Assembly: GCA_021736615.1 (NCBI GenBank)
Contig: JAIPFN010000133.1
Coordinates: forward strand, 1-14,807
Direction: 5' to 3'
Source of the DNA: Phycisphaerae bacterium
Lineage (GTDB): Bacteria > Planctomycetota > Phycisphaerae > Sedimentisphaerales > Anaerohalosphaeraceae
Length of the DNA: 14,807 bases
The translations under genes and the position numbers were made by a program. Position 1 is the first letter of the stretch. The number at the start of each line of letters is the position of its first letter. The notes below the pieces were generated by a model that worked only from the letters and a program-made list of their open reading frames with translations, had not been told where the DNA came from and did not search any database. Positions 645 to 13,832 of this stretch are shown here, piece after piece.

Positions 645-2516
645 TTGGAAAACAAAAATAAATGGCTGAGCTTTTCAGTAATCACAGCCGTTTTTATCAC
701 ACTATTGGACATTGGCGAACTTTTCCATAAAACAGGCTTCGGCAAGTATGGAGTTGGCGAAATATCCCTGGAAATGATCGTGATAATGGCCCTGGCATTT
801 GTCGTTTATTGGCTTTTGCGCCTTTGTGTTCTAATGCCGTTCGTACGATTTTCCAAAGTTGACTCGACTAATCTTGACGTCGGGCTTTTTGCTTTTTTGG
901 CGATCTCTCATGTGTTTTACATCATCCACAGGCATTTGGAATTCGGCAATTTGCTTTCGGATATGAGATTAGTCGCCCTGATAATAGCTGTGCTTATTAT
1001 CTCACTGGTAATGAGTGTTCTTATTGTAAAACGTCTAAAACGCATCCAACAAAAAAAATGGCCCAAATATTTACAAAGGCTTAGTTTTATCATGAGCCTT
1101 ATGTTTATAATTGTCGTCGCAGTCGTTTCATTTCTAACTAATTACGACCCTCCAGTTGAAAAACCGGTCAAACAGGCAGTGCGATTGCCCGGCGCGCCAA
1201 AACACGTGATATTTATCGTCATTGACACGCTGCGTGCCGATGCAATTTCATGTATTAACCCGGACACGATGGCTACACCGAATATCGACGCACTTGCAGG
1301 TGACGGGGTTTTGTTTAATAACGCCCGCAGCACATCTCCATGGACCGTACCGTCTGTGGCATCGCTTTTGACAGGTGTTTCGCCTTTGGCACACAGAACA
1401 ATGACGATTAAATCGCAGCTGCCGGACGAATGTGTCACTATCGCGGAATATTTTGATCAACAAAATTATCAAACCGCCGCTTTCTACCAAAATACTAATC
1501 TTAATAACAGAAATTTCGAGCAGGGCTTCGATACCTTTAAGTTTCACGTTTTGCCAAAGGACTTTTTTTTGCATCAGAGACTGCTAAAATTCCTGGCAGG
1601 CAAGACAGAAACGATAAAAAGGCCGAAATGGGCAACTGATCAAGCGATAGGATGGCTGGATAAAAACATAGATCGCCATGGGTTTTTATACGTCCATTAC
1701 ATTGACCCGCATTCACCTTATACTCCAAAAGATGAATACTTACCCAAAGGAGATGTCCCCAAAAGGGTTGGTAAAACATTTAAAATTGAAAACTTCCTTT
1801 CAACAAGAACTGGTTTTCTTGTCCTTACTCAATCTGAAAAATCATGGGTCAGAAAACTCTACGAAGCCGAAGTTGCTAATATTGACGAAAATATCGGCAG
1901 AATTATTAATGACCTCAAAGCTAAAGGAATCTATGACCAGTCACTGATCGTACTTACAAGTGACCACGGCGATGAATTTTGGGAGCATGGTAGTGTTGAG
2001 CATGGCCATACGCTTTATAATGAACTATTACATGTTCCTATGATCATAAAAATGCCGTCGCAGAGTGTTAAAAGAGTCGTTGACTCGAGGGTGAAAATAA
2101 ACTCAATAACTCCGACTGTGCTCGATATTTGCAATATCAAATATGATCCTAAATCCATCTCCGCACCGTCACTTGCCGCTGCTATTACAAATGACGAAAA
2201 GGTGACTCCGGTAAATATTGTTGCGACAGGGCTTTTGTACTATGAAAACCGTATCGCAGTCGAATTTGATGATTACAAATACATCGAACGCCTTGATAAC
2301 GGCAGGCAGGAACTTTACAATATTAAAGATGACCCGGAAGAATTGATTAACATCGCAAAAGATAATACCGAAATCATAAGCATTGCAAAGAAGATTATTG
2401 CCGATGAACAAGAAAGAGCAAAAGCGTTAAGACAGGAAAACAATTTTAAAGATCCCCAGTCTGTTGAAATGAACAAGGAGGAGCTGGAAAGGCTCAAATC
2501 GCTTGGGTATCTTTAA
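645..2516 (+). CDS. Membrane-anchored sulfatase-fold (alkaline phosphatase superfamily) enzyme with Thr nucleophile
   Basis: 623 residues starting at TTG. The first ~170 residues hold about five hydrophobic segments (around 8-25, 44-64, 79-96, 108-128 and 147-166), followed by a sulfatase-type domain. Visible active-site parts are D194 in FIVIDTLRAD, T234 in SPWTVPSVASLLTG, HYIDPHSPY, D440-H441-G442 in TSDHGDEFWEHG and H453/H455 in EHGHTLYNE. True sulfatases need Cys or Ser where T234 sits, because that residue becomes formylglycine. Thr is the nucleophile in related phosphotransferases such as EptA and LtaS. A phosphotransferase or phosphodiesterase acting on a lipid-linked or surface glycan is therefore more likely than a sulfatase (inference). 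The architecture, membrane bundle then extracytoplasmic catalytic domain, resembles those enzymes. The protein ends in ERLKSLGYL, a tail shared with two other genes here. Substrate unknown. Confidence 0.88.
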   Translation: MENKNKWLSFSVITAVFITLLDIGELFHKTGFGKYGVGEISLEMIVIMALAFVVYWLLRLCVLMPFVRFSKVDSTNLDVGLFAFLAISHVFYIIHRHLEFGNLLSDMRLVALIIAVLIISLVMSVLIVKRLKRIQQKKWPKYLQRLSFIMSLMFIIVVAVVSFLTNYDPPVEKPVKQAVRLPGAPKHVIFIVIDTLRADAISCINPDTMATPNIDALAGDGVLFNNARSTSPWTVPSVASLLTGVSPLAHRTMTIKSQLPDECVTIAEYFDQQNYQTAAFYQNTNLNNRNFEQGFDTFKFHVLPKDFFLHQRLLKFLAGKTETIKRPKWATDQAIGWLDKNIDRHGFLYVHYIDPHSPYTPKDEYLPKGDVPKRVGKTFKIENFLSTRTGFLVLTQSEKSWVRKLYEAEVANIDENIGRIINDLKAKGIYDQSLIVLTSDHGDEFWEHGSVEHGHTLYNELLHVPMIIKMPSQSVKRVVDSRVKINSITPTVLDICNIKYDPKSISAPSLAAAITNDEKVTPVNIVATGLLYYENRIAVEFDDYKYIERLDNGRQELYNIKDDPEELINIAKDNTEIISIAKKIIADEQERAKALRQENNFKDPQSVEMNKEELERLKSLGYL

Positions 2517-2539
2517 ATGCCTGTTGATATATAATAAAA

Positions 2540-2570
2540 TGCCACCGGACCGGATAGTATTCGGTTGGCA
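2540..2570 (+). promoter_or_regulatory. Imperfect stem-loop, possible leader RNA element or weak terminator
   Basis: TGCCACCGGA can pair with TTCGGTTGGCA: ten pairs, including one G-U, with a single T bulge and a loop of about 10 nt. It begins 23 nt after the stop codon of the upstream gene. No U-run follows, so an intrinsic terminator is not well supported. Confidence 0.3.
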
Positions 2571-2648
2571 CTAACGCCGGTTATGCCCCGTCAGGGACTG
2601 TTCAATGCTGGCAGATGAGCTTTAAATCTTCGATAAACAGCTAAAAAA

Positions 2649-2666
2649 GCAATATCTATATATTGC
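2649..2666. repeat. Perfect 7-bp inverted repeat, possible operator
   Basis: GCAATAT-CTAT-ATATTGC is a perfect AT-rich dyad centred about 43 bp upstream of the candidate -35 box at 2701. Its size and position would fit a dimeric regulator site for the glycan block, but nothing identifies the regulator. It is not followed by a T-run, so it is not a typical terminator. Confidence 0.35.
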
Positions 2667-2700
2667 CGGTTCAATAATTTCCCTTGCAAAATGAAGTGAG

Positions 2701-2728
2701 TTGTGGTATTTTAACCGATGTGTATAAT
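2701..2728 (+). promoter_or_regulatory. Candidate sigma70-type promoter of the main glycan block
   Basis: TTGTGG at 2701-2706 and a consensus TATAAT at 2723-2728 are separated by 16 nt. Transcription would begin near 2735, giving a leader of about 88 nt before the first gene. The -35 box matches only its first three bases, so the call rests mainly on the perfect -10 and on the position. Confidence 0.45.
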
Positions 2729-2810
2729 TTGTTCTTATTGTAAAGCGATGGGTTTTGTGAATTAGGGCCGGAATATGCCTTTAATGCTGCTAGTCTCGCG
2801 ATAACTACTG

Positions 2811-2816
2811 AAGGAG
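2811..2816 (+). promoter_or_regulatory. Ribosome binding site of the oxidoreductase gene
   Basis: AAGGAG lies 6 nt upstream of ATG 2823. It is the best Shine-Dalgarno match in the window and marks the likely first cistron of the block. Confidence 0.75.
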
Positions 2817-2822
2817 TGCGTA

Positions 2823-3833
2823 ATGGCCATTAAGATTGGAGTTATAGGTTGCGGTTATTGGGGCCCCAATATAATCAGGAATTTCAGCGAGATTGACTCA
2901 ACCCAGATGTCGTATATTTGCGACCTGAACCGCTCCAGACTGGAAACAATAAGCAAATCCTATCCTGCCGCTAAGATCACCGATAATTATCAGGATATAC
3001 TCAATGACAAAGACATTGATGCGGTAGTTATCACCACGCCTGTTGACGCTCATTATACCCTTGCCAAAGAGTCCTTATTGGCCGGGAAACACGTCCTGAT
3101 TGAAAAGCCAATGGTAGGCAGCGTCGCCGAAGCAGAGGAACTGGTCCGGATCGCCGAGCAGAACAATAAAGTTCTGATGGTCGACCACACCTTTGAGTAT
3201 GCCCAGCCGATCAATGAAATAAAGAAAGTTGTTGATGACGGTAAACTTGGAGACATTTATTATATCAGGGCCGAGTGGCTGAACCTGGGATTGCTTCAGC
3301 CAGACGTAAATGTTATCTGGGACCTGGCGACTCACATTTTCTCTATCGTCAGTTATGTTTCCGGTATGAATCCGATCAGCCTCAATGCCGACGCCGGAGC
3401 CTATGTCAGAAAAGACATCCCCGAGATTGCCCATGTCCACGTCAAATACCCCAATAACATAACCGCCTATATGACGGTAAGCTGGCTCGAACCCAAAAAG
3501 ACAAGACGATTAACTATCATCGGCAGCAAAAAAACTCTTATCTATGATCTGATAAATGTCGAAGAGCCGATTAAAATATATGATACGGGAGTCGACCTGG
3601 CCAATCCTTCAGGCGACATAAATCAGTTAAGGGTAAACTACCGATATGGTGATATTCTCTCTCCTCATGTCAAAAACATTGAGCCGCTTCGCAAAATGTG
3701 TTCTCATTTTGCAGACTGCATCATAGATGGCACTACACCGATAAGTGACGGCAGATCAGGTCTAAATGTCGTAAAAATGCTCGAAGCTACCGAAGATTCT
3801 CTCAAAAACAATGGCATGGAGATTAAACTGTAA
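2823..3833 (+). CDS. Gfo/Idh/MocA-family NAD(P)-dependent sugar oxidoreductase, WbpB/WlbA-like
   Basis: 336 residues, a usual length for the family. The N-terminal Rossmann fold shows the dinucleotide loop G9-C-G11-Y-W-G14. The family signature E94-K95-P96 (VLIEKPM) carries the catalytic lysine, and D167 and H171 in WDLATH form the usual second-domain substrate site. WbpB/WlbA enzymes oxidise C3 of UDP-N-acetylglucosaminuronic acid, producing the 3-keto sugar that an aminotransferase then takes. That role is inferred mainly from the two downstream genes, which encode the expected acetyltransferase and aminotransferase. The stop codon overlaps the next start by one base (TAATG), implying translational coupling. 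The start is fixed by a good Shine-Dalgarno. Family is firm; the exact nucleotide sugar (uronic acid or 6-deoxy sugar) is uncertain because no dehydrogenase gene is visible. Confidence 0.88.
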   Translation: MAIKIGVIGCGYWGPNIIRNFSEIDSTQMSYICDLNRSRLETISKSYPAAKITDNYQDILNDKDIDAVVITTPVDAHYTLAKESLLAGKHVLIEKPMVGSVAEAEELVRIAEQNNKVLMVDHTFEYAQPINEIKKVVDDGKLGDIYYIRAEWLNLGLLQPDVNVIWDLATHIFSIVSYVSGMNPISLNADAGAYVRKDIPEIAHVHVKYPNNITAYMTVSWLEPKKTRRLTIIGSKKTLIYDLINVEEPIKIYDTGVDLANPSGDINQLRVNYRYGDILSPHVKNIEPLRKMCSHFADCIIDGTTPISDGRSGLNVVKMLEATEDSLKNNGMEIKL

Positions 3834-4306
3834 TGATCAAGGATGATGTAAAAATCGGCAAGGGCACTCAGATTTTCCATCCTGAGACGGTTAACATTTA
3901 CGGATGCCAAATCGGGGCCAATTGCAAAATCGGAACGTTTGTTGAGATCAGAAAAGATGTCATCATCGGCGATAATGTCAAAATTCAGACTTTTGTATTT
4001 ATTCCCGAAGGCGTAACTATAGAAGACGGCGTAATGGTTGGCCCGCATGTATGTTTCACAAACGACAAGTATCCAAGGGCCATCAATAAAGACGGAAGCC
4101 TAAAGGGCCCGGATGACTGGGAAATTACAGAGACTGTGGTCAGAAAAGGCGTAGGTATCGGGGCCAATGCAACGATCCTCTGCGGTGTCGAGATCGGCGA
4201 ATTCGCTATGATAGGCGCAGGCGCCGTCGTGACAAAGGACGTTCCGCCTCACGCGGTAGTAGCAGGAAATCCGGCAAGGATAATTAAAAAACAGGGACAC
4301 ATATAA
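3833..4306 (+). CDS. Hexapeptide-repeat N-acetyltransferase, WbpD/WlbB-like
   Basis: 157 residues made mostly of left-handed beta-helix hexapeptide repeats, such as IGANCKIGTFVEI and VIIGDNVKI in the first half and GVGIGANATIL, GVEIGEFAMIGAGAVVTKDV in the second. The end AVVAGNPARIIKK is typical. The central GPHVCFTNDKYPRA, with its histidine, matches the region that holds the active site in WbpD-like enzymes. Such enzymes are usually trimeric and cytoplasmic, and acetylate the 3-amino group of UDP-sugars using acetyl-CoA. It overlaps both neighbours by one base (TAATG at each end), so the three genes are probably made in balanced amounts. Pathway order would be oxidoreductase, aminotransferase, then this enzyme. 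A different acyl donor is possible; family confidence is high. Confidence 0.88.
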   Translation: MIKDDVKIGKGTQIFHPETVNIYGCQIGANCKIGTFVEIRKDVIIGDNVKIQTFVFIPEGVTIEDGVMVGPHVCFTNDKYPRAINKDGSLKGPDDWEITETVVRKGVGIGANATILCGVEIGEFAMIGAGAVVTKDVPPHAVVAGNPARIIKKQGHI

Positions 4307-5403
4307 TGAATGTACCTTTTGTTGATTTGAAGAGTCAGTACAAATCGATTAGCGGCGAGATCAAAGAGCAGATTGATGAAGTACTGGAAAATACGGCCTT
4401 TATTCTTGGCGATAAGGTCAGCCAATTCGAGATCGGCTTCGCGAAATATTGCGAAAGCAAACATGCAGTCGGCGTTAACAGCGGAACCGCCGCTTTGCAT
4501 CTTGCACTAGTTGCTCATGGCATCGGCCCGGGCGACGAGGTCATAACCGTCCCCAATACTTTCATAGCGACCGCAGAAGCAATCTCACACGCCGGCGCAG
4601 TTCCAGTACTGGTTGACATCGACGCCAAATCATACAATATTGACGTCACTAAGATCGCCCAGGCTATCACCCCTAAAACAAAAGCGATAATCCCCGTACA
4701 TCTGTTCGGTCAGTCCGCCGACATGGATCCCGTATCAGAGATCGCCAAAAAGCACGGTCTGGTCATAATCGAGGATTGCTGTCAGGCTCACGGCTCGCAG
4801 TACAAAGGCAAAAAAGTTCCGGTTACGACCACTGGCTGCTTTTCATTTTATCCGGGCAAAAATCTTGGTGCATACGGAGAAGCCGGTGCCGTTGTTACAG
4901 ACGATGACGAAGTCGCCGCGAAAGTTAAAATGCTTCGCGACCACGGCCAGGAAAAGAAATATTTCCACAAATACATCGGGTACAATTGCCGGATGGCAGG
5001 CTTCCAGGGTGCGGTTTTAAATATTAAGCTAAAATATCTCGATCAGTGGATTGCAGCCAGACAAAATGCCGCACGCCTGTACGATCAGTTGCTTGACGGA
5101 GTTGTTGATACACCTTGCCGCTCCGAATTGGCCAGCCACGTCTATCACCTGTATGTAATTAGAACTCCGCAAAGAGACGCCATGATCGAGTACCTTGGAC
5201 AGGCAAACATATCGACCGGAATCCATTACCCCATCCCGATACATTTGCAGGCCGCTTACGCGTCTCTTGGCAAGGGCGAAGGTTCATACCCCGTTTCCGA
5301 GCAAGCCGCCAAAGAAATCCTGTCTCTGCCGATCTATCCGGAAATAACCGAAGAACAGATCGAATATGTTTGTGAGAAAATTAAAAGTTTTCAAGCCAAA
5401 TAA
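4306..5403 (+). CDS. DegT/DnrJ/EryC1-family PLP-dependent sugar aminotransferase, WbpE/WlbC-like
   Basis: 365 residues, full length for the family, opening with the standard VPFVDLKSQY. Visible parts are GVNSGTAALHLAL (phosphate-binding part of the PLP site), the EVITVPNTFIATAEAI region, IIEDCCQAHGSQYKG with the aspartate facing the PLP ring nitrogen, and SFYPGKNLGAYGEAG, where K185 is the predicted Schiff-base lysine. The enzyme would transfer an amino group, normally from glutamate, to C3 of the 3-keto sugar made by the upstream oxidoreductase. Its start overlaps the preceding stop by one base (TAATG), and the next open frame begins directly after its stop. The gene order oxidoreductase-acetyltransferase-aminotransferase matches known 2,3-diamino sugar pathways. 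Family certain; C3 specificity inferred from context. Confidence 0.93.
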   Translation: MNVPFVDLKSQYKSISGEIKEQIDEVLENTAFILGDKVSQFEIGFAKYCESKHAVGVNSGTAALHLALVAHGIGPGDEVITVPNTFIATAEAISHAGAVPVLVDIDAKSYNIDVTKIAQAITPKTKAIIPVHLFGQSADMDPVSEIAKKHGLVIIEDCCQAHGSQYKGKKVPVTTTGCFSFYPGKNLGAYGEAGAVVTDDDEVAAKVKMLRDHGQEKKYFHKYIGYNCRMAGFQGAVLNIKLKYLDQWIAARQNAARLYDQLLDGVVDTPCRSELASHVYHLYVIRTPQRDAMIEYLGQANISTGIHYPIPIHLQAAYASLGKGEGSYPVSEQAAKEILSLPIYPEITEEQIEYVCEKIKSFQAK

Positions 5404-6150
5404 GTGAGACTAGCCCCTCCGGGTTTTTATATGACCATGAATAAACCACCAAAGATATTAGCTTTTATCCCTGTTTACAACGAAGAGAAACGGATCAGAA
5501 CCGTGCTCGAGAGATTTCCGTACGATCTGGTTGACGAACTGATCGTCGTAGATGACGGATCAACGGATGGAACTTTTGAGGTGATAAATGAGTTTGATGT
5601 TCAGGCTATCAGAAACGAAAGCAATCTCGGCATAGGCGTAGGGATGAAAAAAGCGATCCGCTACGGCCTCGATAATGATTTCGATATATTCGTCATCCTT
5701 GCCGGCAATGGAAAAGACGATCCCCAGGACATTCCAAAACTTCTTAAGCCTATAAACGAAGAAGATTACGATTTCATTCAGGGCTCACGGTGCCTGGAAG
5801 ACTCCAATTACAAAAAGAGCACCCCCTTTAGAAGGCAAGTGGCTATCAAGCTCTTTACAATGGTTTGGCGGCTGGCCACAGGCTTTGCTTCTACCGACGC
5901 ATCGAACGGGTTCAGGGCATATAAATTCAAATTGTTTGATGACATCAATATATTCCAGGATTGGCTCGATACGTATGAGATGGAATATTACATTTTCTTT
6001 AACGCCATCAAGAAAGGCTACAAAGTTAAAGAGGTCGCCGTCTCGAAGAATTATCCTTCAAAAAAACGATATACAAAGATCAGACCGATTATCGATTGGT
6101 GGAGAATTGCAAAGCCGATTATATATCTGAAGTTTGGTATTAAAAAATGA
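5404..6150 (+). CDS. Soluble DPM1-like family 2 glycosyltransferase with altered DxD motif
   Basis: Up to 248 residues. Counting from GTG 5404, it shows AFIPVYNEEKRI (20-31), VVDDGSTDGT (48-57), the RNESNLGIGVGMKKAI helix, and DASNGFRAY (165-173), all typical of GT2 polyprenyl-phosphate-sugar synthases. The usual DADGQHDP-like metal motif reads AGNGKDDP (100-107), so both aspartates of the canonical DxD are replaced. The C-terminus has no clear membrane segments, unlike GtrB-type enzymes. The start is uncertain: GTG 5404 directly follows the previous stop, while ATG 5431 or 5437 would give the more usual beginning MNKPPKILAFIPVYNE; none has a Shine-Dalgarno. It overlaps the next gene, a GT39-type transferase, by four bases (ATGA), suggesting that it makes the lipid-linked donor used by that enzyme (inference). 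Confidence 0.88.
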   Translation: MRLAPPGFYMTMNKPPKILAFIPVYNEEKRIRTVLERFPYDLVDELIVVDDGSTDGTFEVINEFDVQAIRNESNLGIGVGMKKAIRYGLDNDFDIFVILAGNGKDDPQDIPKLLKPINEEDYDFIQGSRCLEDSNYKKSTPFRRQVAIKLFTMVWRLATGFASTDASNGFRAYKFKLFDDINIFQDWLDTYEMEYYIFFNAIKKGYKVKEVAVSKNYPSKKRYTKIRPIIDWWRIAKPIIYLKFGIKK

Positions 6151-7640
6151 AAGTATCCGAGAAACTTGCACGTTTGTATGATTCCGAATTTCTGCTCTGG
6201 GGGATAGTAGGAGGCGGCATAATTGTACGTCTGATGAATCTTTTGTCTGCCAGGTCGCTATGGCTGGACGAAGCTTCCATTGCCGTCGACATCGTAAACA
6301 GAAGTTACCAGGGACTCCTGGAGCCTTTGCAGTACCATCACGCGGTACCCCCTTTTTTTTTACTGATAAGCCATTTTTTCGTTAACCTGTTCGGCAATAA
6401 CGAGATTGCCCTGCGCCTGCTTCCCTTTATCGCCGGGGTTTTATCTCTGATCCTTTTTGTACCCCTGTCCAAACGAGTTCTTCCCCGCAAGACAGTTCCC
6501 ATAGCAGTGCTTCTTTTTGCGGGTTCAAAATATTTGATCTATTATAGCGCCGAGCTTAAACAGTATTCCTGTGATGTCGCTGTTGTTTTGCTTCTTACAT
6601 TGATCGCTTTTTATATTATCGATCATGGGCTTTCATTTTTATCCTTGGTCGTTTTTGCACTTGCCGGGGCATTTAGTATCTGGATATCCCATCCATCGAT
6701 TTTTATTGCCGCCGGTATTGGTTCGGTAATGATCGTTTACTACCTCAGGGGCAGGCAATGGAAACAACTCGGCATTATTTCAATAGCTTTTCTGGCGTGG
6801 GGCTTAAGCTTGCTGGCGTGTTATCTATTAATCTATCGTCGTCACACAACTCCAGATGCGGTAATGGATTTCTGGAAAAACGCTTTTATGCCTTTCCCGC
6901 CTGTTAGTCTGTCTGATATACTTTGGTTTCCAAAGACTTTTGAAATTTTTTTCCATAATCCAGGTGGTTTTACGGATGTTGTCATGATTATGGCCATTCT
7001 CTTTGTTGTCGGTTTTCTATCAATGTTTAAAAACAAAAAACTGGAACTGGCCCTGTTGCTGGCACCTTTACTGGTCGCACTGATCGCTTCGGCATTACGA
7101 GCATATCCATTTGGAGGAAGGCTGATATTATATCTGGTGCCCTCTATGCTGATCGTTACAGCACAGGGTGCAGAACAGATAAGATCGAAATATCTGGAAA
7201 ATACACCTGTCCTCGGTATCTGCCTGGTCATGCTGGTAGTTTTTTCTCCGGTAAAGAATATGGTTAAATTGAGTTTTAAGCCTTTCGAAGTATCTGAAAC
7301 AAAACAGATATTTGAGCACCTTTCAGAAAACATTCAGCAGGGTGATGTAGTTTTCGTATCAAACGCAGCTTCAAGGGCGTTGGATTATTATGCCGGCCGA
7401 TATGGACTGGAACACATTAATCGCGTTGAGGGTTTATCTCCGAAATATAGTATAACAGACCATGCCGATTTGCTTGACACCCTTAAGGGTAAAAAAAGAG
7501 TTTGGCTGATTTTTGCGCATGTCAGTAAGAGAGATGGAATTGACTCTGAGTTGTTCACGCTTTTTTATCTTGAACGTTTCGGCAAAAGGATCGATACGCT
7601 CGATAACGGAACAGCTTCGCTATACCTTTTTGACCTTTAA
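6147..7640 (+). CDS. GT39/ArnT-like polytopic membrane glycosyltransferase
   Basis: 497 residues, with roughly ten or more hydrophobic segments through residue ~370 and a more polar C-terminal part of about 120 residues. RSLWLDEASIA, with D41-E42, lies in the first extracytoplasmic loop, where GT-C enzymes of the PMT/ArnT type hold their catalytic acidic residue. HHAVPPFFLLISH and YYSAELKQYSCD are further motifs of this group. Such enzymes transfer a sugar from polyprenyl phosphate to a lipid, glycan or protein on the outer face of the inner membrane. The start overlaps the stop of the DPM-like GT2 gene (ATGA), a natural donor-maker and donor-user pair. A C5-T9 tract at 6348-6361 lies inside the coding sequence. 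Acceptor and sugar are unknown, and a small O-antigen polymerase is less likely given the DE motif. Confidence 0.82.
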   Translation: MKVSEKLARLYDSEFLLWGIVGGGIIVRLMNLLSARSLWLDEASIAVDIVNRSYQGLLEPLQYHHAVPPFFLLISHFFVNLFGNNEIALRLLPFIAGVLSLILFVPLSKRVLPRKTVPIAVLLFAGSKYLIYYSAELKQYSCDVAVVLLLTLIAFYIIDHGLSFLSLVVFALAGAFSIWISHPSIFIAAGIGSVMIVYYLRGRQWKQLGIISIAFLAWGLSLLACYLLIYRRHTTPDAVMDFWKNAFMPFPPVSLSDILWFPKTFEIFFHNPGGFTDVVMIMAILFVVGFLSMFKNKKLELALLLAPLLVALIASALRAYPFGGRLILYLVPSMLIVTAQGAEQIRSKYLENTPVLGICLVMLVVFSPVKNMVKLSFKPFEVSETKQIFEHLSENIQQGDVVFVSNAASRALDYYAGRYGLEHINRVEGLSPKYSITDHADLLDTLKGKKRVWLIFAHVSKRDGIDSELFTLFYLERFGKRIDTLDNGTASLYLFDL

Positions 7641-7673
7641 CGCTGTGGTTTTACTGATTGAAACTGATCAAAT

Positions 7674-9179
7674 ATGCAAGATGAAATAATAAATGATACT
7701 GCCAAATCATCTCCCGACCTTTTCAAGAGGTCAGCCAGGGGCGGCGCCTGGGTTTTTGCCCTCAGGATACTCACTCAGGTACTATCTTTGGGCAGATATG
7801 TTTTATTGATGAACATCCTTGGCGTAAAGGACATGGGTCTGCTCGGAATCGCAATGCTTCTGATGCAGATACTTGACACCTTCTCGAACACCGGCTTCAA
7901 TGCCGCCTTGATCCAGAAAAACAAGAAGCTCGATTCTTATTTAAGCACCGCCTGGACGATTGGGATCATAAGGGCATTTTTCCTTTTTGCTATTCTGTTT
8001 GTCGTCGCGCCGCATTTCGCAAATTGGAAAGCAGACCCCGAAAAAACATTGCTTACCATAAAAGTTATCAGGGTTCTGGGCCTGTCATTTCTCATAGGTG
8101 CATTGGGAAATATCGGCATAATTCACTTCCAAAAAGAACTCCAGTTTCACAAGCAATTCTTAATCCAGATAGTTCCGGCATTTATAAGTATTATCGTCAC
8201 GGTCGTTTTGGTCTTAATATACAAAAGCATCTGGTCGCTCGTAATCGGAAGAATATCGGCAAATATCTTCAGATGTGTTTTCAGCTATTCAATGCACCCG
8301 TTCAGACCAAAGTTTCAAATCGATACGTACAAAGCAAAAGAAATGTGGCATTTCGGCAAATGGGAGTTTTGTTCGACTATCCTGGGATTCATATTGACCG
8401 ATGGAGATGATTTCTACGTCCTGGCCGCAATAGGCTCCGGCGCTCTTGCTCTTTACCAGGCCGCTTACAGATATTCGAATATACCCGCGACAGAAATAAC
8501 AAATGTAATCTCGCAGGTCTCGTTTCCGGCCTATTCAAAACTCCAAAATGACATCCCCCGAATCCGCCAGGCCTATCTCAAAATATTCGGTCTAACGTCG
8601 TTCCTGTCGATCCCCGTATCAGGGATGATCTTCATCTTGACCCCGTTTTTTGTGAAATTATGCTTTCAAGTAAGCTGGTGGCCGATGATCCCGGCAATGC
8701 AGGTGCTCGCATTAAAAGGCCTCGTCAGATCCCTCGGTGCAACCAGGGGCCCGCTCTTCCAGGCACTAGGACTGCCCGGAATAACCACAAAACTGCACAT
8801 TATAAGGGTACTCCTGATGGCGATACTCATTTATCCCCTCACGAGCCGATGGGGAATCTTAGGAACCGCGTGGTGCATTACCATTATCGGTGTAATTATG
8901 CAGCCGTTCGGTGTGTATTTGTCTGTTAAAGTGCTCAAAAGCTCATTTTATGAAATTCTAAAGCCCGCATTTATCCCATCCGTAGGAACCCTGTCGATGC
9001 TGTTGATTATGTGGCTCGTCGGTCGGATATACGGTGAAATTAACTTGATTTCTTTCGTACCCATAGCAATAATTGGAATAGTCGTCTATTTATTGACGAT
9101 ATATATTATGGATATGGTATTTGGTCATGGTTTTAAGAAAAATATATTTGAGCTGCTAGCTTCGGTAATCCGGCGTTAA
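7674..9179 (+). CDS. Wzx-type flippase / lipopolysaccharide biosynthesis protein (MOP superfamily)
   Basis: 501 residues, a typical length. SARGGAWVFALRILTQVLSLGRYVLLMNIL followed by MGLLGIAMLLMQILDTFSNTGFNAALIQ (both split over several positions, residues ~20-82) is the standard opening of the polysaccharide-synthesis (WzxC/TuaB-like) family. The remainder alternates hydrophobic segments and short basic loops, with about 12-14 membrane spans estimated by eye. The family flips undecaprenyl-pyrophosphate-linked glycan from the cytoplasmic to the outer face of the inner membrane. It lies 33 bp after the GT39 gene and 34 bp before a sulfatase-fold gene, with no Shine-Dalgarno before ATG 7674. 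Its presence supports a Wzx/Wzy-type or flip-and-decorate pathway rather than an ABC exporter, although no Wzy polymerase is seen here. Confidence 0.9.
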   Translation: MQDEIINDTAKSSPDLFKRSARGGAWVFALRILTQVLSLGRYVLLMNILGVKDMGLLGIAMLLMQILDTFSNTGFNAALIQKNKKLDSYLSTAWTIGIIRAFFLFAILFVVAPHFANWKADPEKTLLTIKVIRVLGLSFLIGALGNIGIIHFQKELQFHKQFLIQIVPAFISIIVTVVLVLIYKSIWSLVIGRISANIFRCVFSYSMHPFRPKFQIDTYKAKEMWHFGKWEFCSTILGFILTDGDDFYVLAAIGSGALALYQAAYRYSNIPATEITNVISQVSFPAYSKLQNDIPRIRQAYLKIFGLTSFLSIPVSGMIFILTPFFVKLCFQVSWWPMIPAMQVLALKGLVRSLGATRGPLFQALGLPGITTKLHIIRVLLMAILIYPLTSRWGILGTAWCITIIGVIMQPFGVYLSVKVLKSSFYEILKPAFIPSVGTLSMLLIMWLVGRIYGEINLISFVPIAIIGIVVYLLTIYIMDMVFGHGFKKNIFELLASVIRR

Positions 9180-9213
9180 TGCTGCTTATTAAAGTTGAAA
9201 TGATAATAATAAA

Positions 9214-10197
9214 ATGGATAGAACAAATATATTAGAACAACAATGGGACTACCTGATAATCCTTGATGCCTGCAGATTTGATTACTTCGAGAAGAATTAC
9301 GCCGATTACTTTGACGGCGAACTTACAAAGGTTAAATCAATTGGCTCTTGCACTGATGAATGGCGAGATAGAACTTTCACCTCTCGCTATGATGATATTG
9401 TATATATATCCTCGAATCCTCACATAAGCTCCGATCAGACAGTCACCGGCTTTCTCGGCGGCGACCATTTCCACGAGGTACATGATATATGGAATAAAGG
9501 CTGGGATTACACAAGGGGCACGGTATTGCCCGAAACGGTAACCGCTGCCGCCAAACAGATCGTTCCATCGCTAAAAGGCAAACGAGTCATCATCCACTAT
9601 CTCCAGCCCCACGCGCCTTACCTGACCTTGCCTGAAGATACCAAAGGCTTTGAGGATCCAAACGAAAGCATGCAAAAGTTTCTCGAAGGGATCGATAACG
9701 ACAACAGAGTTGGCAAACGCAGAAAAATTATTATGAGGAAAATCCTTCCATTGTTCAGGAACAACTTAATCCTGGGCAATCAACCTCATTGGATAATCAA
9801 GCAGCTTCTCTTTTTACCGCCGAATACACCGATGGATGCTGTTAGAAGAAAATACGGAGTTAAGGGCCTGCGTAAAGCTTACGAGATGAATCTCAGGACA
9901 GTTTTAGAACAGGTAAGGCTGCTCCTGCCGCACCTCCCTGGTAAAGTAGTAGTAACCGCCGACCACGGAGAACTTCTTGGTGAGAAGATGTGCTTTACTC
10001 ACAAGGGAAACTCGGACGACCCATTGCTTGTCGATGTGCCATGGTTCGTTCCGAATCCTGTTTCAGGGCAAACTGAAACGCAGGTTGAAAAAGAGCATAT
10101 CCCGGAAGATAACAATACTGATAATAATACCCCGGATGAAAAGAGTGAAGATTCCGCTCTTGCCGAAAAGCTAAGGGCATTAGGGTATATGGACTGA
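9214..10197 (+). CDS. Short sulfatase-like alkaline phosphatase superfamily protein
   Basis: 327 residues, shorter than classical sulfatases, with no signal peptide or membrane segment. It belongs to the compact group with LDACRFDYF near the N-terminus (D18 as probable metal ligand), then GSCTDEW, where T47 occupies the nucleophile position, YLQPHAPY, D250-H251-G252 in TADHGELLGE, and H263 in THKG. The core is followed by VPWFVPNP and then a polar, Asp/Glu/Asn-rich linker of about 35 residues before the final LAEKLRALGYMD. Relatives of this compact group are often seen beside capsule or O-antigen genes (recollection, not checked), but I know of no proven substrate. Lack of an export signal suggests a cytoplasmic place of action unless partners carry it. 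Hydrolase or transferase on a phosphate ester is the best inference; the metal ligand set looks complete. Confidence 0.8.
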   Translation: MDRTNILEQQWDYLIILDACRFDYFEKNYADYFDGELTKVKSIGSCTDEWRDRTFTSRYDDIVYISSNPHISSDQTVTGFLGGDHFHEVHDIWNKGWDYTRGTVLPETVTAAAKQIVPSLKGKRVIIHYLQPHAPYLTLPEDTKGFEDPNESMQKFLEGIDNDNRVGKRRKIIMRKILPLFRNNLILGNQPHWIIKQLLFLPPNTPMDAVRRKYGVKGLRKAYEMNLRTVLEQVRLLLPHLPGKVVVTADHGELLGEKMCFTHKGNSDDPLLVDVPWFVPNPVSGQTETQVEKEHIPEDNNTDNNTPDEKSEDSALAEKLRALGYMD

Positions 10198-10212
10198 GAC
10201 CTATTAGACTAA

Positions 10213-10241
10213 TTAACTTCCGCCGATACAGACTCTATAAT
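10213..10241 (+). promoter_or_regulatory. Candidate internal sigma70-type promoter before the asparagine-synthetase-like gene
   Basis: TTAACT (10213-10218) and a consensus TATAAT (10236-10241) are separated by 17 nt in the 59-bp gap. Transcription would begin near 10248, leaving only about 9 nt before ATG 10257. It may allow the last two genes of the block to be expressed separately. Confidence 0.4.
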
Positions 10242-10256
10242 TGAAAGTTATAAAAT

Positions 10257-12188
10257 ATGGCAGGATTGAATTTCATATTTTCCTTTGACAACGATGTCAC
10301 AGAGAAGGCATCTGCTTATCAGCAGGCGCTTAGCGAGACGTTGTTTGAGGATACCCATCATGTAGAGACTGTGTTTGAAACCGATCAGGTTTTATCAAGT
10401 TTCACGGGTTATGACAATTATCCTGCAAGAACTTTTGAAACTGATGGCATTAAGTATTATGTGGAAGGTTGCTTCTTCAATCTCTATCAGGAAACCGCCG
10501 ACAAGGCGATAGCTTCTTTTTCGAAAAGATTGTTCGCCGGCGACCAAACCGCAAAGAAGGACCTGACCGATTGGCTATTGACCGTTGACGCTGAGTTTTT
10601 GGTATTCGCGTATAGTTCTGCCGATAAACGCATCCTTATTTTCAATGACGTATTTGGTTCTCTACCGTGCTATATGCATCAAACAGACTGGGGAGTAGCC
10701 TTTTCTCGAAGCTTTCTTTTTGTTTCTAAATTCGTCGCACAGAAACAATTGGACCAGATGGCCATGGCGCAGTTCCTTACCCTCAGATACACGATCGGCG
10801 ACCGGACATATCTCAACGATGTTTACAGCATAAAGCCCGCTCAACTCATATCGATAGAAACCGATACACGAACTATGAGCAGGCAAGTGCTGCATGTTTT
10901 TAATTTCGAGAAAAAGAAATACAGATTCAGGTCGACAGAGAAGAACGCCTTAGAGTCGGCAAAATTATTTGCCGAAGGCTGTCGCCGCCGAACAGATCCT
11001 GATGGAAAGAATGTCGTCCTGCTTAGCGGCGGGCTTGATTCCCGTGCCGTCGCCGCCGGACTTAGTAAGGCAGGATGCAATTACGATGCTTTAACTCAGA
11101 TCGATTTATTTAAAACCGCTGAAAACGATTTTGAAATAGCCAGACTGGTCGCATCGGCAGTCGGAGTTACCTGGAAGGATCTACAAGCAGAACCTGTAAT
11201 TGGAAAAGCTCTACTAAGAACGCTAAAGATGAAGGGCGGTTTTGTATATCTTGGCAGAACTTTTCTCCTTCAGATAAATGACAGGATAGTCGCCGATTAT
11301 GGTCACAAAGCCAGGGTCTTTACCGGTCTGGGAGGTGACAAGGTCGCTCGTGATACGAGAAAAAAGGGCGTTTGGACGATCAATCAAATAATTGACCGTC
11401 TGCTTAGAAATGAAAGTGTTATGCCCCTCGACACATCCCTGAAACTTGCCGGCGTCTCTAAGGAAGATTTCTACAAAGAGCTGAGAAAAGAAATAGCTGC
11501 TTATCCCGAAAAGAGGATTTCGCAAAAATCCGTTCACCTTAACTTTTACATGAGAAATATAAAATGGCATTTCGAAGGTACCGACAGACAGCGAAATTTC
11601 TTCTGGACCGCAAGTCCGTTCTTCTCGATAGACTTTTTTCATTATATAATGAACTGTCCGGACCGTCAGAAAACATATTTAAGGTTTTACATTCATTTCC
11701 TGGACAACCTCAATAGAAGCGTTTCAGACTTGCCCTATGCGGTTAATTACAGCCTAAGGCCAGTATCGATAGCAAATTGCAGAAACCTGTCCTGGTATTG
11801 CAAGTGCTGCATAACCAATGCCTGGATAAGAATTCGCAGGTTCCCGAATCCGGTAAGATTTGTTATAAGAAAGATCAAGAAGTTATTTTCAAAGCCCGCT
11901 CCTGGTAGTAGCCGCAAGTTTGTCCACTCTGAAAATATTGTTAAGATTATAGAAGAACAGATTTCTAATTGCAGCCAAAAAGGTGATTTCCTCAATTGGA
12001 CCGCCATAAGGGACGTTCTCGAAAATTGCGAGAAATATAACAACGAATCAATGTACATTCTTTTAACTGTTGTTTCTATAGCAGAGCAGTTGGCGACAGG
12101 TAAAAGCTCTCTGGAAAAATATAAAGAGTCTGATTTTGGATCGTATAATTCTATTAGACGTGATGTTGACCCGACTTCGATCTCTTAA
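10257..12188 (+). CDS. Asparagine-synthetase-like protein with degenerate glutaminase domain
   Basis: 643 residues. The N-terminal ~235 residues resemble the Ntn glutaminase half of AsnB, including FNDVFGSLPCYMHQTDWGVAFS and the LTLRYTIGDRTYLNDVYSIKPAQ stretch. The protein begins Met-Ala-Gly where active enzymes have Met-Cys-Gly, so the nucleophilic cysteine is missing and glutamine hydrolysis is not expected. The synthetase half keeps the ATP pyrophosphatase loop S257-G-G-L-D-S-R263 and has FTGLGGDK where AsnB usually has GDGGDE. Residues ~505-555 hold a cysteine cluster (C508, C515, C517, C518) and a basic amphipathic stretch. The likely chemistry is adenylation of a carboxylate and attack by free ammonia or another amine. 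In a glycan locus this could amidate a uronic acid, as the AsnB-like WbpS is thought to do in Pseudomonas O-antigen loci. ATG 10257 is the only sensible start. Family firm; role inferred. Confidence 0.85.
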   Translation: MAGLNFIFSFDNDVTEKASAYQQALSETLFEDTHHVETVFETDQVLSSFTGYDNYPARTFETDGIKYYVEGCFFNLYQETADKAIASFSKRLFAGDQTAKKDLTDWLLTVDAEFLVFAYSSADKRILIFNDVFGSLPCYMHQTDWGVAFSRSFLFVSKFVAQKQLDQMAMAQFLTLRYTIGDRTYLNDVYSIKPAQLISIETDTRTMSRQVLHVFNFEKKKYRFRSTEKNALESAKLFAEGCRRRTDPDGKNVVLLSGGLDSRAVAAGLSKAGCNYDALTQIDLFKTAENDFEIARLVASAVGVTWKDLQAEPVIGKALLRTLKMKGGFVYLGRTFLLQINDRIVADYGHKARVFTGLGGDKVARDTRKKGVWTINQIIDRLLRNESVMPLDTSLKLAGVSKEDFYKELRKEIAAYPEKRISQKSVHLNFYMRNIKWHFEGTDRQRNFFWTASPFFSIDFFHYIMNCPDRQKTYLRFYIHFLDNLNRSVSDLPYAVNYSLRPVSIANCRNLSWYCKCCITNAWIRIRRFPNPVRFVIRKIKKLFSKPAPGSSRKFVHSENIVKIIEEQISNCSQKGDFLNWTAIRDVLENCEKYNNESMYILLTVVSIAEQLATGKSSLEKYKESDFGSYNSIRRDVDPTSIS

Positions 12189-12198
12189 TTTTTATAAA

Positions 12199-12203
12199 AA
12201 GGA
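12199..12203 (+). promoter_or_regulatory. Ribosome binding site supporting a GTG start
   Basis: AAGGA lies 6 nt before GTG 12210. The protein begins MSKILIIGIDGG, exactly at the first beta strand of the family, so start and site agree. Confidence 0.65.
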
Positions 12204-12209
12204 AACCCT

Positions 12210-13832
12210 GTGAGTAAGATACTTATAATCGGCATCGATGGCGGAACATGGGATGTTCTCACTCCTGCTATTAATCACGGGGCCATGCCGAATCTAAAGA
12301 AGATTATCGACTCGTCGGCCTCGGGCATTCTCGAATCGACGATGCCCGCGATTACACCGGCGGCGTGGGGCTCCTTTCAGACCGGCGTCAATTGCGGCAG
12401 AAACGGCGTATTCGATTTTTCATACTGGGACAAGTTAGAAAATAAAACCAGGTTTGTCAGTTCCTCCACTTTGCAGACAACTCTCTGGGAGATGGCTTCA
12501 GATGCCGGTAAACGTGTCGCGACAATTAATGTTCCCATGACCTACCCCCCGCGTAAAATCAACGGCTGCATGGTAACCGGAATATTAACCCCGTCGCTTG
12601 AATCGGAATTTACATACCCGCCTGATCTAAAAGAAAAGCTCCTCCATGCCGTCCCCGACTATCATATTTTTAACCTGCAAAATGCCGGTACGGGTTCGCC
12701 TCATGAAAACTTCGAAGGTTTTATCGATCAGATGGTTGACATAGTCGATAGCAGAACAAAGGCCGCAAAGTTCCTTATCGATACCGATGACTTCGACTTG
12801 TTTATGGTACACTTCCAGACCACCGACATCGTCCAGCATGCCATGTGGGGATACATGGACGAAAACTACCCTCTCTACGACGCAAACAAACGCGATTATA
12901 TTTTCGAGCACTTTTACAAACATCTCGACGCAAAGATCAAAGAGGTTCGCGATGCTTTCTCCGCAAAAGCCGGCGATGACTTCCTGACACTTTTTGTCTC
13001 CGACCATGGACAGGAGGCGCATAAAAAACGGATAAATCTCGGAAACTGGCTTTGCGATCAGGGACTCTTAAAGATCAATCCCATACGCAAGAAAAATAGA
13101 CCCCTGCTGAAAAAGATAACTTCAACGTTAAAGGTTGGGAAACTTCTCAGGCTTTTTATTTCCGAACAGTCTGTAAAAAAAATGGAGCGGTCCGTCGGTC
13201 TTAATTTCGAGCAGATAGACCTGCAAAACTCCAGCGCACTCTCTATCGGAAGGAGCGGCGAAGGTTTTATCTATTTACTCAAGGACGATGAGCAGGAAAA
13301 TGAACGGCTCAAAGACGATATAATTACCGGTCTGAAAAATATTTGCGATCCCTGTACAGGCGAAAAAGTTGTAAAAAACGTATTCCGCAAGGAAGATATT
13401 TACAGCGGCTCATTTATGCACAGAATGCCCGACCTGGTCGTCGAACCCGTTTCAGGATACAGCTTCACCGGCTGGTACCAATTGGGCGAGGGCCTCTTTC
13501 ATAATGTCGAGCCGATTGTCGATTTTCATATTGGCAAGCATCACAAAAATGGTATTATTATCGCATCAGGCAAAGACGTAAGACACTCTGATACAGTAAA
13601 GGCTCGCTTGATCGATATAGTTCCGACATTGCTCTACTACATGCAGCTGCCCGTCAAGGACGATCTCGACGGCCAGATCGTATTCGATTTATTTACCGAT
13701 CAGTTCAGACAGACAAATGATACGCCCGGGTTAAAAAAATATAAAGAAGCACCCGGTAAACAGGAATCCGAATATTCAAAGAAAGAAGAATCAGAGATCG
13801 AGCAAAGGCTCAAGGATCTCGGTTATTTTTAG
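12210..13832 (+). CDS. Type I phosphodiesterase / nucleotide pyrophosphatase-like alkaline phosphatase superfamily protein
   Basis: 540 residues. The complete metal and nucleophile set of the NPP-type fold can be traced: D10 in IIGIDGGTWD, T49 in MPAITPAAWGSFQTG (nucleophile), D206 and H210 in TTDIVQH, D265-H266-G267 in VSDHGQE, and H444/H445 in GKHHKNG. It should therefore be an active two-metal phosphodiesterase, phosphatase or phosphotransferase. There is no signal peptide or membrane span, so it acts in the cytoplasm unless recruited. Many relatives sit in exopolysaccharide loci without a proven substrate; nucleotide sugars, glycerol phosphate or lipid-linked intermediates are possibilities. 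After the core comes a lysine/glutamate-rich linker and the end IEQRLKDLGYF, shared in style with two other genes here. It lies 21 bp after the asparagine-synthetase-like gene and closes the block. Fold certain, substrate unknown. Confidence 0.87.
   Translation: MSKILIIGIDGGTWDVLTPAINHGAMPNLKKIIDSSASGILESTMPAITPAAWGSFQTGVNCGRNGVFDFSYWDKLENKTRFVSSSTLQTTLWEMASDAGKRVATINVPMTYPPRKINGCMVTGILTPSLESEFTYPPDLKEKLLHAVPDYHIFNLQNAGTGSPHENFEGFIDQMVDIVDSRTKAAKFLIDTDDFDLFMVHFQTTDIVQHAMWGYMDENYPLYDANKRDYIFEHFYKHLDAKIKEVRDAFSAKAGDDFLTLFVSDHGQEAHKKRINLGNWLCDQGLLKINPIRKKNRPLLKKITSTLKVGKLLRLFISEQSVKKMERSVGLNFEQIDLQNSSALSIGRSGEGFIYLLKDDEQENERLKDDIITGLKNICDPCTGEKVVKNVFRKEDIYSGSFMHRMPDLVVEPVSGYSFTGWYQLGEGLFHNVEPIVDFHIGKHHKNGIIIASGKDVRHSDTVKARLIDIVPTLLYYMQLPVKDDLDGQIVFDLFTDQFRQTNDTPGLKKYKEAPGKQESEYSKKEESEIEQRLKDLGYF

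Follow-up and report, generated by a model that had tools for sequence, protein, structure and literature searches.

A conserved L-x-x-L-G-Y tail of Thr/Ser-type alkaline-phosphatase-superfamily proteins as a possible tethered docking helix

Alkaline-phosphatase-superfamily proteins of the locus

Three proteins of the alkaline phosphatase (AP) superfamily, P1, P2 and P3 (Table 1), are encoded in the analyzed window, i.e., the whole stretch of 14,807 nucleotides of a Phycisphaerae contig, and are accompanied by genes for glycosyltransferase, flippase, aminotransferase and hexapeptide-repeat proteins. Their coordinates, lengths and endings agree with those reported in an earlier note on this DNA. 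P1 and P3 are assigned to the superfamily by Pfam matches (PF00884 at 3e-47 and PF01663 at 9e-33, respectively). The Pfam search returned no match for P2, the best Foldseek matches of which are the catalytic domains of MCR/EptA (E 1.5e-6, TM 0.45); in profile comparison P2 matches the P1 family (E 1.2e-11).

All three proteins possess a Thr as predicted nucleophile and an Asp-His-Gly motif presumably involved in metal binding (T234/D440-H441-G442 in P1, T47/D250-H251-G252 in P2 and T49/D265-H266-G267 in P3). The Cys/Ser in C-x-P/A-x-R of formylglycine (type I) sulfatases is found in none of them. The AlphaFold2 model of P1 consists of five long helices (residues 6-166) followed by a core (187-598), and the charges lead one to expect the catalytic domain outside the membrane. 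On the explanation tentatively favoured below, the enzymes of the present locus would probably transfer sulfo or phospho groups to a glycan, either kind being equally conceivable, rather than be sulfatases; the AP-superfamily proteins Agl30 and Agl31 are likewise sulfotransferases (PMC11980604).

Table 1 Features of the three AP-superfamily proteins in the window
Feature	Positions	Strand	Remarks
P1, AP-superfamily protein (PF00884), 623 aa	645..2516	+	N-terminal membrane part predicted as five helices
P1 membrane part, residues 6-166, five predicted helices	660..1142	+	AlphaFold2 model
P1 predicted nucleophile Thr234 (TVPS, not Cys)	1344..1346	+	column invariant in 120 relatives
P1 tail, residues 611-623 (KEELERLKSLGYL), predicted helix 611-619	2475..2513	+	pLDDT block means 73, then 60
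P2, short AP-superfamily protein, 327 aa	9214..10197	+	no membrane part seen
P2 predicted nucleophile Thr47	9352..9354	+	invariant in 120 relatives
P2 variable charged linker, residues 284-308	10063..10137	+	pLDDT mostly <50
P2 tail, residues 309-327 (ending AEKLRALGYMD), predicted helix 309-322	10138..10194	+	sequence, AlphaFold model
P3, PF01663 AP-superfamily protein, 540 aa	12210..13832	+	no membrane part seen
P3 predicted nucleophile Thr49	12354..12356	+	conservation of 90 % or more across 119 relatives
P3 variable linker, about residues 497-523 (limits approximate)	13698..13778	+	homologue tails, column entropies
P3 tail, residues 524-540 (KKEESEIEQRLKDLGYF)	13779..13829	+	sequence, homologue tails, entropies

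Conservation and predicted structure of the tail

P1, P2 and P3 share the C-terminal motif L-x-x-L-G-Y, and a stop-to-stop scan of both strands (at least 40 codons) found it at the frame end of only these three in the window. Composition only gives a chance of about 1e-4 per protein, so that three occurrences in one locus are not attributable to chance. Among the 120 homologues listed per protein (counting the window's own P0001, P0121 and P0241), LGY lies at most 4 residues from the C-terminus in 116 (P2), 101 (P3) and 95 (P1), and a looser motif is present in 118, 112 and 115, respectively. Some of the homologues lacking LGY are shorter and stop before the tail or have a different end (SLKSLGKV in P0081).

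The charged linker that the earlier note had placed between core and tail of P2 and P3 was confirmed and varies among relatives, while the tail behind it, where present, is strongly conserved, including the kind of residue at L(-2), at K/R(-6) and after the Tyr. Profile-profile comparison of the P2 and P3 families yielded a single match, which covers the tail as the final 25 columns (E 1.4e-5, probability 80 %). The tail is common to three AP families with cores that align weakly or not at all. A natural P2-P3 fusion (P0129) retains one tail. In the AlphaFold monomers of P1 and P2, the tail is predicted as a short helix of low confidence (pLDDT block means 60-75) detached from the confident core; the core packing that the earlier note named as counter-evidence is not predicted for these two. 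Homologues and models together support the tail as a module separate from the catalytic core.

L-x-x-L-G-Y is also a common helix ending, a Schellman-type cap, matched here by the distances between the invariant L, G and Y, and the proteins may retain it because it helps each of them to fold, stay soluble or remain stable. Full or partial forms of the motif are likewise found at the ends of CysD (GYF/GYM), of a putatively Era-like GTPase (LKTLGYS) and of a prepilin-like ORF of genome G002 (LDKLGY, L091). However, a cap would have little to stabilise on a helix that follows a low-confidence linker, conservation in P2 and P3 extends in kind to the further positions named above, and the tail is absent from all Cys-type enzymes of the census below while showing up on small proteins adjoining tail-less APs. 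A passive cap is regarded as quite improbable.

Distribution between nucleophile branches

In a census of P1-like proteins covering eight genomes plus one additional locus, which were not sampled at random (genomes were found via P2 relatives, regions came from among the PF01663 matches listed, and most G006 and part of the G002 regions were picked by tail pattern), the tail was found on 0/36 Cys (formylglycine-type) and 38/60 Thr/Ser proteins (35 terminal, 3 internal), with nucleophile and tail assigned by profile alignment and pattern and many ORF starts uncertain. Leaving out G006, the counts are 0/35 and 31/52. P1-like Thr-type proteins without tail include 7/7 in G005 and both Thermoplasmata rows. 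Among P3-like proteins, the tail is missing from most rows of Ser type and there tracks Thr better than "Thr/Ser".

A FastTree phylogeny was computed from 107 cores ending 40 residues ahead of the protein end (P1 included, P2 and P3 not; 13 homologues added; rows of <250 residues or without readable nucleophile omitted). The Cys group forms one side of a branch with support 95, in a run that gave long-branch warnings. Tail presence requires 10 changes on this tree versus 36 in shuffles, with internal and GYW-type tails scored as tail and the AP-TPR fusions L030 and L112 (internal LGY) as none. As part of the overall explanation tentatively favoured below, the tail may represent an old part of a transferase-like AP branch with Thr/Ser nucleophile. 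Among the P1-like proteins examined, it was confined to the Thr/Ser side, with no case of the formylglycine type. Many genes annotated as sulfatase may encode transferases.

Exported proteins, fusions and gene neighbourhoods

The tail occurs in bacteria and archaea. Its carriers include proteins with a membrane part predicted as five helices, one that starts like a lipoprotein (L130) and others lacking any export signal (automatic export classes were poor and missed Tat signals; those of G002 were redone), so that it should be present on either side of the membrane. For such a range of enzymes, a receptor travelling with the enzyme is the simplest assumption. Four fusions show the order AP-LGY-TPR with the motif internal, indicating that it follows the AP domain rather than the protein end. 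These fusions, together with the activity of tagged Agl30/31, rule out a signal formed by the free C-terminal carboxylate.

Genes adjacent to those of tail-bearing APs encode (i) an oxidoreductase and a HlyD-type protein (L130), (ii) a response regulator (L131), (iii) a TonB receptor (L144), (iv) a glycosyltransferase (L143) and (v) a lipid-synthase-type membrane protein (L075). The unrelated neighbours in L130, L131 and L144 exclude a glycan-locus tag, and tail-bearing APs do exist outside glycan loci. The earlier note had proposed a docking or targeting motif, apart from the active site, by which separate enzymes would reach a common partner, for instance a membrane assembly complex. The separate module is retained in view of its conservation, the detached predicted helix and its presence on small neighbours; service to glycan loci, or to a single complex of this kind, is not supported considering exported APs, unrelated neighbours, the Thr/Ser branch and the AP-TPR fusions.

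CysD-like, ribbon-helix-helix-like (RHH-like) and TPR-like proteins and the Era-like GTPase also bear the tail, which is accordingly not exclusive to AP proteins. Genome tail strings were taken only where ending in frame and give minimum counts (G008: 25/34 strings). Six in-frame strings of G002 comprise the P2 and P3 homologues, the prepilin-like ORF, and three that have no tail-bearing ORF of 90 aa or lie outside the DNA read. HbYX-type proteasome motifs need a hydrophobic residue at the position of the tail Gly, so that the tail does not fit this type.

Small RHH-like proteins bearing the tail

Tail-less Thr/Ser APs from haloarchaeal plasmids (five from one genus) are accompanied, in 7/10 cases, by a small tail-bearing RHH-like protein at most 70 bases away; for tail-bearing APs this applies to 0/22. 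The tail-bearing AP of L185 (19945-21261) is followed, on the same strand and 485 bases off, by a gene for an RHH-like protein with tail, and for the tail-less APs of L274, L279 and L283 no RHH-like tail partner was found. One bacterial phylum has the same layout, with an RHH-like tail protein beside a tail-less AP. In a bacterial operon, the RHH-like partner lacks an export signal although the AP (L109) has a lipoprotein-like start, and thus the pair may never meet. Fusion of RHH to AP in G445, G452 and G470, considered from open-frame lengths, was ruled out, the genes being separate. Judged by sequence, the small RHH-like tail proteins beside tail-less Thr/Ser APs are a new observation.

Two of the RHH-like proteins match antitoxin-like or CopG-type RHH models (one below cut-off). 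Such carriers, as well as the conserved hydrophobic C-end on a tether, would be compatible with a degron or protease-recognition tail setting enzyme levels. Against such a turnover signal, the tail has carriers within the cytosol and beyond it, archaea and bacteria, both of which possess it, differ in their proteases, the motif is internal in the AP-TPR fusions, and Agl30 and Agl31 tagged behind the tail were still detected and active, according to the available parts of PMC11980604. Such a signal is considered very improbable.

CysD-like proteins and sulfate activation

The haloarchaeal CysD-like protein ends with DLMERLRDLGYM or a near variant in 32/32 ORFs read. In Haloarcula rara (G006), where mapping took 32/37 matches (five of these outside mapped regions), the 19 true frame-end tails belong to 15 APs, one CysD-like protein (PF01507) and one RHH protein, the remaining two not being credible genes. 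CysD-like genes adjoin tail-less AP genes in 4/31 loci; in Halopiger a PAPS-reductase-family gene lies two genes from a tail-less AP gene, and in G005 an APS kinase gene follows one. CysD, the small subunit of sulfate adenylyltransferase, differs from AP in its unrelated fold; among the sequences read it ends in ..K-x-x-G-Y-F or, in another set of bacteria, in ..L-R-x-x-G-Y-M, and the residue ahead of the Gly is E, Q or D rather than L in the majority of the bacterial sequences.

One may speculate that a third protein, perhaps a handler of activated sulfate, reads the tail and joins AP-type transferases with CysD-like enzymes. The tail inventory of G006, the CysD-like endings, the gene neighbourhoods above and the sulfotransferase function of Agl30 and Agl31 would agree with such a hub, but exported-looking tail-bearing APs should not reach it in the cytosol, and both Agl proteins are functional in a foreign species (PMC11980604, parts available). 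Moreover, the three haloarchaeal genomes examined contain no CysN over cut-off, ruling out CysN as general receptor, and a full-length APS kinase match in only one. The hub is viewed as unlikely.

Proposed function of the tail

The explanation tentatively favoured here, possible though short of probable, is that AP transferases use the tail as a tethered docking helix, in cis or in trans. The tail would be a short amphipathic helix on a tether, with a Gly cap and the invariant Tyr at its end, and would dock non-covalently on the catalytic domain of an AP. That domain would most likely belong to a sister subunit or, once substrate is bound, to the tail-bearing protein itself. Once docked, it could serve as assembly arm or active-site lid. 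Working as a detachable piece, it could also come from a small neighbouring RHH-like protein where the enzyme has lost its own.

That the tail is conserved, modular, missing from the Cys branch and present on small neighbours is evident at the sequence level; we infer the AP domain as receptor and assembly or closure as effect. Docking onto the AP domain is opposed by AlphaFold giving no confident tail placement on the monomer cores of P1 and P2, and no docking groove was identified on the AP core. An AP-only role is contradicted by the tails of the CysD-like protein, the Era-like GTPase and the prepilin-like ORF, and RHH supply as a rule by tail-less APs without partner and the tail-bearing L185 AP with one. 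The tail-less Thr-type rows of G005 and Thermoplasmata and the Ser-type P3-like rows likewise count against the favoured explanation. A broader version appears rather doubtful, in which the tail acts as a transferable module for activation or docking, supplied in trans by RHH-like proteins in archaea and bacteria, and the haloarchaeal link to the CysD-like protein wires a sulfate-transfer pathway. If RHH-like proteins do supply the tail in trans, it would provide a handle on enzyme assembly or switching-on.

Comparison with characterised systems

EptA/MCR phosphoethanolamine transferases and LtaS-like enzymes have five N-terminal membrane helices before the AP domain, an arrangement also predicted for P1. 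The catalytic domains of EptA/MCR are nearest in fold to P2, at a TM of only about 0.45, and P1 scores far below the NCBIfam cut-offs for LtaS (18.2 vs 970 bits) and pEtN transferase (15.6 vs 500). A literature search of titles and abstract starts, covering few subscription journals, retrieved no description of the LGY tail.

A precedent for the favoured explanation is the choline sulfatase SmCS, in which a C-terminal arm reaches the next subunit and helps to form its active site; this helical tail drives oligomerisation, and deletion of 12 residues causes strong activity loss (PMC5870055, parts available). By description, SmCS resembles P1-P3 as an AP-superfamily enzyme with C-terminal tail, but differs in being a sulfatase with a long, structured tail, the LGY motif being unmentioned in the available passages.

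Agl30 (VNG1056C) and Agl31 (VNG1057C) of Halobacterium salinarum are AP-superfamily N-glycan sulfotransferases, active in another species with tags fused behind the tail; the available parts of PMC11980604 leave their mechanism open and make no mention of the tail. Translation of the published primers yielded the ends HLEDLGYL (Agl30) and LEELGYT (Agl31), and that of the VNG1063H primer KELGYIE in one of three frames (position within the gene not given). Although archaeal, Agl30 and Agl31 share with P1-P3 the AP fold, a glycan-locus gene and the LGY tail, in a comparison covering these three features. The tail is thus present on two AP-type glycan sulfotransferases of experimentally demonstrated function.

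Conservation and predicted structure of the LGY tail

The coordinates and C-terminal endings that the earlier note had given for three proteins of the alkaline phosphatase (AP) superfamily (P1, P2 and P3) are right, as read from the ORFs encoded in the window. Profile comparison links P2 to the P1 family, and the structures closest to the P2 model are catalytic domains of MCR/EptA transferases (TM about 0.45). The window is taken as a glycan locus. The asparagine-synthase-like protein has weak scores to known families (25–48 bits) and may represent a less known type. The organism names given for P2 and P3 relatives are Planctomycetota, most rows carrying no name.

Proteins and coordinates of the window and of further loci
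Feature	Locus	Position	Remarks
P1	window	645–2516	623 aa; PF00884
P2	window	9214–10197	327 aa; no match of its own in the Pfam search
P3	window	12210–13832	540 aa; PF01663
Asparagine-synthase-like protein	window	10257–12188	between P2 and P3
AglJ/PpgS-like glycosyltransferase	window		
Gfo/Idh-type dehydrogenase	window		
Hexapeptide-repeat protein	window		
DegT aminotransferase	window		
PMT_2-type membrane protein	window		
Polysacc_synt flippase	window		
Tail-less PF01663 AP gene	L146 (Zipacnadia genome G005, C323)	2658–4567	APS kinase gene follows within a few bases
Small LGY-tailed protein	L037	579–1109	weak TPR match; divergent from PF01663 AP gene
Small LGY-tailed protein	L109	2442–3029	weak TPR match; divergent from PF01663 AP gene
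Small tail protein beside tail-less AP gene	L184, L185, L272, L276, L280, L281, L282		
Tail-less MGLFDRL-type AP family	L199, L200, L201, L213; L279		

LGY lies at most 4 residues from the C-terminal end in 116 (P2), 101 (P3) and 95 (P1) of 120 homologues each, the window protein included, and a looser tail motif is present in 118, 112 and 115 rows, respectively. Among the latter, leucine at −5 and tyrosine at 0 vary little or not at all, which is partly circular, since rows were picked by the motif; the counts of 116, 101 and 95 are the fair figures. As the linkers of P2 and P3 (positions −20 to −45) have entropies of mostly 3.3–3.9 bits in the looser-tail rows, the proposed stronger conservation of tail than linker holds for both proteins. 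Comparison of the P2 and P3 profiles reported the tail as sole match.

AlphaFold models of P1 and P2, built with the 120-row alignments, combine confident cores with a short helix at the C-terminus whose confidence is low to moderate: residues 309–322 in P2 (75 and 66 as block means, most of the linker being under 50) and 611–619 in P1 (73 and 60, the preceding core reaching about 98). These confidence values and the P2 linker suggest a tail helix detached from the core. Five long helices N-terminal of the P1 core are read as predicted membrane helices. A natural 854-aa fusion of P2 and P3 homologues on one contig (P0129) retains the P2 linker and carries a single tail, located at the P3 end.

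Distribution of the tail

The supposed role of the tail as a tag of glycan loci was not borne out, since tail-bearing AP proteins adjoin unrelated genes: (i) oxidoreductase and HlyD-type genes in case of a lipoprotein-like AP (L130), (ii) a response regulator (L131) and (iii) a TonB receptor (L144). Another adjoins a glycosyltransferase (L143).

A census covered 141 AP ORFs from eight genomes and one Thermoplasmata locus, grouped by nearest window protein. In the P1-like group, the tail is found on none of 36 proteins with a cysteine nucleophile (Cys-type), while among 60 with threonine or serine it is terminal in 35 and internal in 3 (Fisher p 2e-11, relatedness ignored); one of 3 further proteins without readable nucleophile also has it. 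The Haloarcula rara regions were picked largely by tail pattern; exclusion of this genome leaves 0/35 Cys-type and 31/52 Thr/Ser-type proteins with tail. The 22 Thr/Ser rows scored tail-less include two (L030, L112) with LGY before TPR repeats, outside the first search pattern, and four with GYW-variant ends. The tail is missing from the Thr-type P1-like rows of G005 (all 7) and Thermoplasmata (2). The tail is present on 11 of 12 P2-like proteins, and is terminal in 15 and internal in 1 of 30 P3-like rows, 7 of the 9 Ser-type rows being without it. Among 25 AP ORFs read in the Phycisphaerae genome G002, the tail is confined to two, the homologues of P2 and P3 in its glycan locus; all 21 Cys-type proteins lack it, 20 having a Tat-like start.

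In a FastTree of 107 cores (each truncated 40 residues short of the C-terminus), a branch with support 95 separates the Cys group from the rest, and tail state requires 10 changes vs 36 in shuffles. The tail thus accompanies the Thr/Ser side, switching there repeatedly.

Small tail proteins beside tail-less AP genes

The 19 sites read as true frame ends with tail in H. rara comprise 15 AP, one CysD-like and one ribbon-helix-helix (RHH) protein and 2 not credible genes. In genome G008, nine in-frame match strings, a lower bound, belong to 5 AP proteins, a TPR-like lipoprotein, an RHH-like protein of 66 aa, an Era-like GTPase and a frame of 27 codons. GY-capped ends on unrelated proteins leave some probability for the less likely alternative that the tail is a passive helix cap.

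The main new finding is a small tail-bearing protein beside tail-less AP genes. In haloarchaeal plasmid stretches, 34 complete AP genes were read, 22 with and 12 without tail, the latter being Cys-type in 2 (L287, L288) and Thr/Ser-type in 10 cases. A tail-bearing protein of 62–76 aa is encoded at most 70 bases from 7 of these 10, vs none of the 22 (p 4e-5). In L185, a tail-bearing AP on the same strand as the small gene likewise has it as immediate neighbour, 485 bases off; counting it gives 7/10 vs 1/22 (p 3e-4). With five Halorussus species taken as one, the ratio is 3/6 vs 0/22 (p 0.006) or 1/22 (p 0.02). L184 and L185 had suggested the idea, other plasmid loci being examined afterwards, and L280–L282 were chosen because the same genus had already shown the arrangement.

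The two genes are convergent in L184, divergent in L185 and co-directional in Halorussus (4-base overlap or 2–3 bases between). The tail-less L185 AP is short (337 aa), and its gene may be broken. Nine of the small proteins align mutually; that of H. rara (L079) matches RHH_1 over cut-off and that of L184 a FitA-like RHH model under cut-off, while no RHH model scored above chance for the L185 and bacterial proteins. In one bacterial phylum, a relative of the small protein occurs in 6 of 57 genomes (source counted), and a tail-less AP gene adjoins it in 5 of the 6 loci. At L109, the AP has a lipoprotein-like start and the small protein no export signal, which a simple partner model does not explain. 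One of the small TPR-like proteins of L037 and L109 has a lipoprotein-like start.

Most likely, the tail represents a tethered docking helix of AP-type transferases, which would account for (i) its absence on the Cys branch, (ii) its presence in both compartments, (iii) its internal placement and (iv) its occurrence on small neighbour proteins.

Possible link to sulfate activation

A CysD-like protein (PF01507, under CysD cut-offs) was matched in 38 of 40 haloarchaeal genomes, one match being weak, and ends with the tail in 32/32 ORFs. This occurrence leaves some probability for another, less likely reading, in which a third-party hub would read the tail. Canonical CysD of the Planctomycetota examined ends in GYF, and a second CysD-like group in GYM (once KLRSLGYM). 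Of 31 loci, 4 have the tail-bearing CysD-like gene next to a member of a haloarchaeal AP family without tail (MGLFDRL or a similar sequence). On a Halopiger plasmid, such an AP lies near genes annotated as PAPS-reductase family and inorganic phosphate transporter. The pairing of AP and APS kinase genes in L146 fits sulfate transfer.

Comparison with known AP-superfamily enzymes

Deletion and mass spectrometry assigned N-glycan sulfation in Halobacterium salinarum to two members of the AP superfamily, the membrane protein Agl30 and the cytosolic Agl31, both of which, produced in Haloferax volcanii in C-terminally tagged form, sulfate its glycan (Zaretsky et al. 2025, PMC11980604). Translation of the cloning primers published there places HLEDLGYL (Agl30) and LEELGYT (Agl31) directly before the tag; one of the three frames of a primer for a third AP gene, VNG1063H, yields KELGYIE. 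The tail goes unmentioned in the parts of that study consulted, and the Agl30 end had no exact-pattern match in 392 genomes of the order. Since these sulfotransferases carry the tail, transfer of a sulfate or phosphate-type group is likely, rather than proven, for the window enzymes. For a docking helix, the receptor would probably be an AP domain, for which choline sulfatase, as far as described in the part consulted, provides a precedent (PMC5870055).
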